Below the pieces are notes generated by a model. The model saw only the letters and a list, made by a program, of their open reading frames with translations. It was not told where the DNA came from and ran no database searches. Made by a program: the position numbers and the translations under genes. From Clostridia bacterium (GTDB taxonomy: Bacteria; Bacillota; Clostridia; RGIG6154), in assembly GCA_017410375.1 (NCBI GenBank), contig JAFQQW010000024.1:1-64000 (forward strand): a stretch of 64,000 bases of DNA. Reading direction: 5' to 3'. Each line of letters opens with the position of its first letter. The stretch's first letter is position 1. This document shows, piece after piece, positions 10,645 to 14,031 of the stretch.

Positions 10645-11291
10645 ACCCCGACCGCCTTTACAAATTTTTCTGCCAGAGCGGTAATGCCTTCAAAATCATC
10701 ACCATCAATGCATTGCTTATTCACAATTGAAGCACCAATACCAAAGCCCGAAGCACCTGCTTTCAAATAGGTTTTAATGTTTCCTTCGTCCACACCGCCC
10801 ACTGCAAGCATTTTGATGTGTGAAAGCGGTGCTTTGACAGCCTTTAAATAGGAAGGTCCCAAATCAGATACCGGAAACAGCTTCACAAAGTCTGCGCCCG
10901 CTATATGTGCCGACTGAATTTCGGTAGGCGTCAATGCACCGGGCATAGAAACCAGTCCCAATTCTCTTGTTTTCCGAATAACCGACGCATTGGCATCCGG
11001 AGAAATAATGAACAATCCGCCGGCATTTTTTGTCAATTCCACCTGTTTTTCACTAAGGACGGTGCCTGCACCGATAAACATTCTTCCTTCAAAATGTGAT
11101 GCCAGCATTTTAATATTTTCGGCAGTTTCTTCGTCTGGAACAATGCCTCTGGCATCGTATGTAACTTCAAGCAGGCGAATGCCGCCTTTATACATTGCTT
11201 CTGCAAGGGGTATCAGCTTTTCTTTTTGTACACCCCGGACAATAACAACCAATTTTTCACGCTCAACAGCCTCAATTACTTTATTACGCAT
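10641..11291 (-). CDS. eda: KDPG/KDPGal-type aldolase (2-keto-3-deoxy-6-phosphogluconate aldolase family)
   Basis: 216 residues, a class I TIM-barrel aldolase. EVTYDA near residue 43, GAGTV near 77 and the Schiff-base lysine in FVKLFP near 135 fit the Eda/DgoA family. It splits 2-keto-3-deoxy-6-phosphosugar acids to pyruvate and glyceraldehyde 3-phosphate. Coupling to dgoK suggests the galacto epimer as substrate; the symbol dgoA would then be equally apt. A consensus promoter lies 30 bases upstream (11322-11350). Confidence 0.88.
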   Translation of the reverse strand: MRNKVIEAVEREKLVVIVRGVQKEKLIPLAEAMYKGGIRLLEVTYDARGIVPDEETAENIKMLASHFEGRMFIGAGTVLSEKQVELTKNAGGLFIISPDANASVIRKTRELGLVSMPGALTPTEIQSAHIAGADFVKLFPVSDLGPSYLKAVKAPLSHIKMLAVGGVDEGNIKTYLKAGASGFGIGASIVNKQCIDGDDFEGITALAEKFVKAVGV

Positions 11292-11321
11292 ACTTTCACC
11301 TTTCCTTTGCTGTTTTGTTTA

Positions 11322-11350
11322 AGTATAACATTTTAATTGCATACTGTCAA
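11322..11350 (-). promoter_or_regulatory. Promoter of the eda-dgoK-GH99-like operon
   Basis: TTGACA (11350-11345) and TATACT (11327-11322) with 17-base spacing. It lies downstream of the ncRNA terminator, so the operon does not need read-through from the ncRNA. Confidence 0.8.
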
Positions 11351-11374
11351 GAAATTCAGCTTTTCATAAGACTT

Positions 11375-11408
11375 AAAAAAGAAAAAAGCGACCGCCATAT
11401 ACGGTCGC
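11375..11408 (-). terminator. Terminator of the structured ncRNA
   Basis: A 7-bp stem GCGACCG/CGGTCGC (11402-11408 with 11388-11394) followed on the minus strand by TTTTTTCTTTTTT. The plus-strand direction has no T run. Confidence 0.88.
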
Positions 11409-11541
11409 CCAAAAAGGGAGTGTTTGAAATGAAAAACTTCATTGTAAAAGTGATTCCGGCAAGCACCCGCAGGGGGCAGTTCTGATTCAGAACTAAAGAT
11501 TTGAGGAGTAATGCGAACACTTGCCGTAATTCCTTCTACAC
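11375..11541 (-). ncRNA. Structured non-coding RNA, possible 6S RNA
   Basis: A TATAAT box (11552-11547) precedes a 165-base transcript that ends in a clear terminator. Pairing seen by eye: a closing stem GAGTGT/ACACTC (11543-11538 with 11423-11418); an internal bubble whose 3' side holds a small hairpin (AATGAA/TTCATT); then an unbroken 14-pair stem (11526-11513 with 11470-11457, including G-U pairs); then an apical region with hairpin AGTTCT/AGAACT. A long rod with a central bubble and a 3'-side hairpin is the shape of bacterial 6S RNA, the regulator that mimics an open promoter. It is at the short end of the 6S size range, and a leader regulating eda is a less likely alternative. Confidence 0.5.
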
Positions 11542-11546
11542 TCTTT

Positions 11547-11552
11547 ATTATA
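11547..11552 (-). promoter_or_regulatory. -10 box of the ncRNA gene
   Basis: Consensus TATAAT about 7 bases before the inferred transcript start. No clear -35 hexamer at 17 bases; TCGACA is 21 bases upstream. Confidence 0.5.
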
Positions 11553-11600
11553 CATATCAATATGTAAATACCTTGTCGAAAATGTGAAATTTCTTTGAAA

Positions 11601-12473
11601 TTATTCTTTTTCTTTTTTCGACAGCATTAAAATAGCAATCAAAATCATACCAATACCAAGGTAATTCAACGGCTCATCATATAGAAAAAAGCCGAAAAAC
11701 GCCGCGGTAACAGGCTCAATACAAGCAAGCACCGCCGCTTTAGAGGCATTCACATATTTTAAGCCAATTGTGTAAAACGCAAAAGGTGCAACCGCCGTTA
11801 TAAATCCAAACAAAAACACAACACCCGAAAGCTCCAGCAACTTTTCGGAGGCAGAAATGACTTCGATTATGCCAGGCAGATCTCCGATGCAAAAGGATAC
11901 TACCGATGCAAATAAAAACGTATAACATGTAACCGTAAGCCCGCTGTTTTTCTGCAATGCAAAAGTACCGAAAATACTATAGGAGGCATAAAAAACGCCA
12001 CTCAGTATACCAAGTAAAATGCCAATGAACGAGGTTTTAGTGTCCCCGCTCAACCCCGCAATGCAGGCACATCCCAAAAAAGCAATAACAGCTGCAACGG
12101 CTTTTTTTACAGTCAGTTTTTCTTTCAAAAACAGTACCGAAAAAATCATAACCCAGACGGGCGACATATACAGCAATACCGCCGCAACCGAAACTGATGT
12201 CATATCAATAGCGGATAAATACAAAGCGGACATACCGCCTACCGAAACTGCACCGCAAAGGATTAGCATGGGTAATTCTTTAAAAGATATTTTCAAGCTT
12301 TTTGGACTGAAGATTCCTGTAAAAACCCATAAAACAAGTGCAGCAGACCCAATTCTGAGTGCAGTACACTGTAGGGCTGAAAAACCAAAGGATTGTACCA
12401 ACTTTAAAAACACGCCCATACTGCCCCAAAGCAAGCCCGAGAGCACAATCAGAAGCACGCCAAATTTTTTCAC
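11601..12473 (-). CDS. EamA family (drug/metabolite) transporter
   Basis: 290 residues in about ten hydrophobic segments, arranged as two EamA repeats. The first begins with LSGLLWGSMGVF; the second includes GILSGVFYASYSIFG. It is a membrane permease of the DMT superfamily, substrate unknown. The start is taken as GTG 12473, which overlaps the nth stop codon as GTGA and has AGAAGG 9 bases upstream; a TTG 8 codons earlier is less likely. It is probably cotranscribed with nth. Confidence 0.85.
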   Translation of the reverse strand: MKKFGVLLIVLSGLLWGSMGVFLKLVQSFGFSALQCTALRIGSAALVLWVFTGIFSPKSLKISFKELPMLILCGAVSVGGMSALYLSAIDMTSVSVAAVLLYMSPVWVMIFSVLFLKEKLTVKKAVAAVIAFLGCACIAGLSGDTKTSFIGILLGILSGVFYASYSIFGTFALQKNSGLTVTCYTFLFASVVSFCIGDLPGIIEVISASEKLLELSGVVFLFGFITAVAPFAFYTIGLKYVNASKAAVLACIEPVTAAFFGFFLYDEPLNYLGIGMILIAILMLSKKEKE

Positions 12474-13223: not shown

Positions 13224-13973
13224 TTACGCAGTACCTTTAAGCTCAATGCGCAAATTGTCCGCAATCATAGCAATGAACTCAGAATTGGTGGGTTTTCCCT
13301 TGCCCGAGGCGATGGTATACCCGAAATAATGATTTAAAGTATCCGGTTCGCCCCGGTCCCAGGCAACCTCAATGGCGTGCCGGATAGCGCGTTCCACTCT
13401 GGAGGGTGTGGTGTTATGATTTTTCGCTACGGTAGGATACAGCATTTTTGTAATGGAATTTATAATTTCAATATCGTTGACGGTCATGATAATGGAGTCG
13501 CGTAAATAGCGGTAACCCTTAATGTGCGCCGGAACTCCCACATCGTGAATAATTTTGGTTACCATCGCCTCCAAATCAGGTTTCATAGACTGTAACACCT
13601 TTCTGCTTTCCCGCTTTACCGCACTTCTGGTTTTATCCAGAATCACCTGCGGACTTACGGGCTTAACTGCATAATATGCCGCACCACTCTCGAAAATACG
13701 TGCCACAAGAATATCCGAAACAGGTGCTGACAGCACCACAAATTCGGGACGTTTCATGTAGCTGTTTTCCATAACCCCAATTGCATCGCATTTGGGTAAA
13801 AACAAATCCAGAACAGCCGCATCCGCTTTAAAGTTGTTGATGGCTTCGACAGCTGCCTCACCGTCCGAAACCACCGCCATGACCTTTACATCAGCCGCTT
13901 TATCCATAAATTCCTTTAACCGCATGCCATATTCCGCATCCGAAAACGCCAGCACAATCTTTAGTTTTTCCAT
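13224..13973 (-). CDS. spo0A: Sporulation master regulator Spo0A
   Basis: 249 residues. The C-terminal DNA-binding domain is unmistakable ([31 protein letters not shown]). The receiver domain keeps the phosphorylation site Asp56 (VLDLFLP) and the lysine of YAVKP, but the acidic pair at positions 10-11, normally Asp-Asp, is Phe-Ser, followed by Asp12. GAAAGGAG precedes the ATG at 13973. Its usual neighbour spoIVB lies 37 kb away in the same orientation. Confidence 0.97.
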
Positions 13974-14002
13974 TTTTCTTTTCTCTCCTTTCTTTTGATT
14001 CG

Positions 14003-14031
14003 ACTTTACCATATTTTTCCATTTATGTCAA
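14003..14031 (-). promoter_or_regulatory. Sigma-A type promoter of spo0A
   Basis: TTGACA (14031-14026), 17 bases, TAAAGT (14008-14003), about 30 bases before the start codon. Confidence 0.7.

Follow-up and report, generated by a model that had tools for sequence, protein, structure and literature searches.

A candidate small RNA with a conserved anti-start seed in a lineage of Clostridia

The locus, its relatives and its transcription signals

The window studied here – a stretch of 64,000 nucleotides of contig JAFQQW010000024.1 from a Clostridia bacterium, taken at its full length – contains a group of minus-strand features upstream of eda. A sequence scan places the whole feature on this strand, running from a TATAAT box through about 164 nt to an intrinsic terminator, and the eda-dgoK pair lies between it and a WbsX-type gene and serS. 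A spo0A gene (TIGR02875, 262 bits; 13224-14012, minus strand) is located 1.7 kb upstream of the RNA, and its presence suggests that the lineage may sporulate. The features, in the direction of transcription, are:

11583-11600, minus: upstream element TTTCAAA-N4-TTTCACA, an 11-bp direct repeat (conserved position)
11547-11552, minus: -10 box TATAAT with TATG just before it; ATATGTATAATAA is identical in the genus-mate (comparison with relatives)
11378-11541, minus: predicted small RNA of about 164 nt, with the 5′ end placed from the -10 box and the 3′ end from the terminator
11443-11541, minus: rod (computed fold)
11541-11533 with 11450-11443, minus: outer helix of the rod, GUGUAGAAG with CUUUUACA (computed fold)
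11526-11512 with 11471-11457, minus: inner helix of the rod, 15 pairs (computed fold)
11498-11508, minus: loop motif CUCCUCAAAUC, anti-Shine-Dalgarno (unpaired probability)
11412-11436, minus: seed UUUUUCAUUUCAAACACUCCCUUUU, the most conserved block (three-copy alignment)
11378-11410, minus: intrinsic terminator, with hairpin 11410-11386 and a U-rich tail (terminator scan)
11322-11350, minus: separate promoter of eda, TTGACA-17-TATACT, 11 of 12, outside the RNA (promoter scan)

The preliminary description had proposed a free-standing structured RNA with a -10 box, a rod and a terminator, followed by an operon with a promoter of its own past the terminator, and each of these elements is present. 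The terminator hairpin has 10 pairs, six of them G-C, and is followed by a T-rich tail; because the scan found one terminator-like site where shuffled sequences yield 1.0, it is uninformative by itself, and the weight rests on the position and conservation of the terminator. Since the eda promoter lies beyond the terminator, the small RNA appears independent of eda and is probably a transcript of its own, as predicted from these signals and from a genus-mate copy that has no adjacent eda.

Searching with the window RNA as DNA across six genomes of the order revealed copies in three of them, its own (G000) included. The copy in G002 (uncultured Clostridia bacterium E27__bin387, of the same genus; L038, and L096 in the class search below) aligns in two blocks of 80% and 82% (E 4.3e-9), and its ends match those of the window copy; that in G003 (Clostridia bacterium RGIG2094 from goat colon, another genus of the same family; L041) is shorter, at about 110 nt (E 2.4e-4). 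In G002 the RNA is followed by the WbsX-type gene (75% protein identity to that of the window) and serS (92%) with the eda-dgoK pair missing, and the -10 box, rod and terminator are retained even though eda is not adjacent. The G003 copy retains the seed, and a T-run accompanies its hairpin; it is flanked by a threonine synthase gene and by an RNase J gene, the latter on the opposite strand. It is divergent from the RNase J gene (L041 4366-6030), which encodes an RNA decay enzyme in Firmicutes. The three neighbourhoods are different, and the promoter element, -10 box and terminator thus appear to travel together with the RNA.

No credible copy was found in the other three genomes of the order, two of which are only 65% and 82% complete, with a seed search and the covariance model R1. 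The window and G002 copies served to build this model and so necessarily match it; it is not sensitive, since it missed the G003 copy. Its only extra matches are in G001 (E 0.11) and G004 (E 0.62 and 3.5), and on inspection by eye, with about 500 bases of surrounding sequence, none was judged to be this RNA. A sequence-only model, R2, has 34 positions of 0.86 bits each, and no result rests on it. The exact seed pattern is present in three of 391 genomes of the class, all of one family, and has no match in viral contigs.

The TATAAT box lacks a good -35 and was not scored by the promoter scan. The scan scored an alternative, TTCACA-18-CATATT (9 of 12; 11588-11559, minus strand), in which TTCACA serves as the -35, and the relatives have CATAAC and CAAAAA at the position of CATATT. 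We prefer TATAAT as the -10 because it is common to all three copies, whereas CATATT is not kept. In the three copies, TTTCACA begins 37, 37 and 38 bases upstream of this box, and the other half of the repeat, exactly 11 bases further up, reads TTTCAAA, TTTCAAA and ATTCGCA. In an ungapped comparison, the window and G002 are identical at 38 of the 60 positions upstream of the -10 box and at 16 of the next 60. A search of the window that tolerated one mismatch gave a single occurrence of the repeat, compared to 0.47 expected (38 of 100 shuffles have one); the count is therefore not significant, and the repeat draws its support from conservation in place.

Together, the poor -35 and the conserved upstream repeat, spaced at 11 bp, suggest a site for an activator of the OmpR family. 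The direct repeat also resembles a PhoP-type box; phosphate control was dropped, as the PstS model TIGR02136 matches nothing in the own genome or in G003 and has two matches in G002 (one above the cut-off). The promoter pattern as a whole gives four matches in the own genome, at three places of which one is this RNA and the others show no link to it, and two in G002, one of which is this RNA. Two copies of TGTCGAA, which we presume from the consensus to be 0A-box-like, flank the upstream element in inverted orientation (11574-11580, plus; 11617-11623, minus). Across the window the motif shows no enrichment, with six occurrences where 7.85 are expected, and it does not occur in the 80 bases upstream of TATAAT in G002 and G003.

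Fold and conserved seed

The computed fold of the segment 11376-11556 has an energy of -57.2 kcal/mol, whereas shuffled sequences average -38.1 (z -4.65, equalled by none of 200 shuffles), and z is -4.07 without the terminator. The preliminary description had a rod with a central bubble and a hairpin on the 3′ side, and gave, from folding by hand, one 14-pair helix without mismatches. The rod is recovered computationally with an asymmetric internal loop of 16 nt on its 5′ strand and 5 nt on its 3′ strand, and the helix is recovered with 15 consecutive pairs including four G-U; the small 3′-side hairpin forms but is weak. The RNA strands of the window, G002 and G003 fold at -56.2, -58.8 and -45.7 kcal/mol, compared to -47.6, -43.7 and -43.1 for their complements, and the predicted helices contain 9, 10 and 2 G-U pairs, respectively.

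The rod diverges among the copies while the seed stays. Between the window and G002, the inner 11 pairs include four that are unchanged, two with a change on one side, five with changes on both sides and none that is broken; in a control in which the 3′ strand was permuted 200,000 times, full pairing arose 10 times. This comparison was hand-aligned on the computed folds, and because it involves a single pair of sequences and a helix picked after folding, we regard the evidence for covariation as good but not overwhelming. RNAalifold on plain MAFFT alignments gives less: for two sequences -14.2 kcal/mol, where 7 of the 29 pairs carry double changes, and for three only -4.3 kcal/mol, where the covariation term counts against the structure (+1.8) and the fold differs, pairing the conserved 5′ end (GUGUAGAAG) with the seed. 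G003 forms a shorter hairpin (z -7.28, terminator included).

The seed, UUUUUCAUUUCA(U)AACACUCCCUUUU, is positioned directly before the terminator; all 25 of its positions agree among the three copies, and the G003 copy has one inserted base. Read as its complement, it spells a translation start – GGGAG, 8-9 nt, and AUG AAA AAN – or, written out, GGGAG-N8-ATGAAAAA. The CACUCCC part has a mean unpaired probability of 0.41 in the window, 0.96 in G002 and 0.88 in G003, and the UUUUUCAUUUCA half is predicted to be about half open in all three (0.52, 0.48 and 0.40). In the predicted fold of the window copy, GAGUGU near the 5′ end is able to pair with CACUCCC, an interaction that could provide a built-in lock. 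The loop motif CUCCUCAAAUC is predicted to be exposed, with mean unpaired probabilities of 0.97 in the window and 0.92 in G002, and is absent from G003. By prediction, the RNA thus has the hallmarks of C-rich anti-Shine-Dalgarno (anti-SD) small RNAs, namely an exposed C-rich motif and a promoter and terminator of its own, with the 3′ seed of the window copy half open.

We searched 391 genomes of the class with the seed pattern TTTTTCAT, ungapped and with up to three mismatches, which gave 25 matches in 24 genomes compared to four for a reversed control pattern. Two matches are this RNA, the G003 copy being missed by the ungapped pattern on account of its inserted base. All but two of the remaining 23 cover, in antisense, an ATG whose frame spans at least 165 aa, with an in-frame stop no more than 23 codons upstream; the exceptions are L103, where the ATG is internal to a longer frame whose upstream stop is 73 codons away, and L083, which has no such ATG. 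Eighteen of the 21 starts read MKK or MKN, as the search pattern itself demands, and L092 alone of the 21 passed a loose terminator test. A slightly shorter pattern matches seven loci in the species collection, of which two are known copies and five are antisense over an ATG opening 105-504 aa, with an in-frame stop 10-21 codons upstream.

Targets and competing explanations

Searches for a target shared between genomes, assessed by eye, found none with the 19-nt seed (up to three mismatches in six genomes; 12 matches listed, 10 examined besides the RNA) and none with GGGAGTGT-N2-6-ATG (three genomes; 12 listed, nine examined). The best duplexes outside the RNA are with a 357-aa frame in G002 (-31.1 kcal/mol) and a glycosidase-like frame in G000 (-25.9 kcal/mol); these energies have no shuffle control, and nothing is drawn from them.

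That no particular target emerged from the seed and SD-core searches would suit an RNA that acts as a sponge, titrating a protein or another RNA, or one that pairs with many starts indiscriminately. The seed also resembles the anti-SD of 16S rRNA, and fits generic starts better than any single gene. However, the 25 conserved positions include the complement of AUG and the U-run preceding it, which exceeds what a mimic of this kind needs, and we consider the explanation improbable. We give a similarly small chance to a broad anti-start RNA for consensus MKK/MKN starts (A-run, GGGAG, spacer, AUG AAA AAN) that would serve as a Spo0A-switched brake at the onset of sporulation; the two inverted TGTCGAA sites of the window promoter and the nearby spo0A underlie this possibility, and several of the MKK/MKN-type genes matching the seed look exported by eye.

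Somewhat less probable still is that the conserved block is the ribosome binding site and start of a tiny plus-strand open reading frame (ORF), to which the RNA would be antisense, as in a type I toxin-antitoxin or small-peptide locus. The plus strand does read GGGAG-N8/9-ATG AAA AAN in all three copies, opening ORFs of 18 aa in the window, 62 aa in G002 and 20 aa in G003 (the last by eye; in the ORF listing it is the end of a longer frame). The 62-aa ORF of the genus-mate has a hydrophobic stretch by eye, and its peptide is mildly similar to that of the window (36 of 500 shuffles are as good). The other two peptide pairs are unlike each other (500 of 500 and 219 of 500 shuffles as good), however, and the window ORF ends after 18 codons. 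Moreover, no plus-strand promoter was scored upstream in any of the three copies, in a scan that also missed the -10 box of the RNA itself, and a scored terminator and T-run are present only on the RNA's strand in the window and the genus-mate. That the 62-aa frame is open opposite the RNA in L096 is probably chance, though its product would resemble a type I toxin.

The RNA was initially put forward as a candidate 6S RNA, which it resembles in overall size and in a rod with an internal loop; its GAGUGU and ACACUC ends are also able to close on each other. This identity was rejected. None of the 13 Rfam matches with E up to 10 in the interval 11200-11800 is to the 6S model, RF00013, and at the gathering score no Rfam family matches anywhere in the 64-kb window. 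A clear 6S RNA of the genome itself lies on another contig (RF00013, G000:C16:58463-58652, L001; 75.8 bits, E 3.8e-15), and there is exactly one RF00013 match (E up to 0.001) in five of the six genomes of the order, the sixth being an 82%-complete assembly of 1.2 Mb. The 6S model is therefore effective in this lineage, and the genome already has its 6S RNA. Bacillus has two 6S RNAs, and this RNA could in principle be a second, divergent one that binds sigma-A polymerase; we regard this as very unlikely, as the G003 copy is a plain hairpin of about 110 nt with little space for the 6S central bubble, and the strongest conservation is in the 3′ linker. The preliminary description had itself named two findings that would count against it, the lack of a covariance-model match and the lack of covariation in relatives: the former applies and argues against 6S, whereas covariation, from two sequences, favours a structured RNA. 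Two weak Rfam matches rank best on the strand of the RNA, Hrs13 (E 0.0049, 21.9 bits where gathering requires 52) and suhB (E 0.12, 19.9 bits where it requires 41). Both fall far short of gathering and derive largely from the terminator and U-runs, and they were set aside.

A leader or attenuator governing eda through read-through is equally hard to sustain, for although the RNA is upstream of eda on the same strand and ends in a terminator, eda has a strong promoter of its own past that terminator, and the relatives' copies adjoin the WbsX-type gene (where TTGCAT-17-TATAAT follows the terminator by eye but is not listed by the promoter scan) or lie between the RNase J and threonine synthase genes.

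Proposed function and known systems

We favour, with fair confidence, a single joint reading in which the RNA is restricted to this lineage and acts in trans in the manner of RoxS and LhrC, repressing translation by base pairing at ribosome sites. A regulated sigma-A promoter, with its poor -35 and conserved upstream element, would make the RNA, which a response regulator may turn on. The rod would present one C-rich anti-SD motif in its loop, with a second and longer anti-start seed in the linker ahead of the terminator. This seed would base-pair across a target mRNA's Shine-Dalgarno sequence, its spacer and its AUG AAA, keeping the 30S subunit off the message so that translation stops. We infer all four steps – transcription, response-regulator activation, target pairing and repression.

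The analysis sets right an annotation as 6S RNA that was tempting, and contributes an RNA without an Rfam family from a Clostridia lineage known through metagenome assemblies. It also offers a compact example of a seed that complements the whole initiation region, from the Shine-Dalgarno sequence through the second codons, and that has been kept while the rest of the RNA was rebuilt.

UCCC motifs that bind the Shine-Dalgarno sequence are described for LhrC, RNAIII, RsaE, SprD and FsrA (PMC4132741). RoxS/RsaE, of Bacillus subtilis and Staphylococcus, is described as a Firmicute small RNA with C-rich regions, one of which pairs with the Shine-Dalgarno sequence and blocks 30S binding; its regulator, the response regulator ResD/SrrA, was traced through an 8-nt sequence conserved around -65 of the promoter (PMC4409812). 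The predicted RNA is similar in having C-rich anti-SD motifs and a conserved upstream promoter element, and TTTCACA, at its nearly fixed distance, is a candidate counterpart of the ResD/SrrA-bound element. It differs in its seed – CCCCUUUGUU in RoxS/RsaE as given there (PMC4409812), compared to CACUCCC plus the complement of AUG – and in its host lineage, here Clostridia; the Rfam scans, with a library in which the presence of the RoxS/RsaE family is unconfirmed, gave no match to that family.

In Listeria, LhrC1-5 are described as binding the ribosome site through CU-rich UCCC motifs in loops and in a linker, and their induction by the response regulator LisR as requiring an element upstream of -53 (PMC4132741). 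There are five LhrC copies per genome, each with three UCCC sites, whereas we found one copy in the own genome, with two C-rich motifs, and the window RNA has no Rfam match. On its predicted features and by comparison with Rfam, this is a new RNA of a known functional class.
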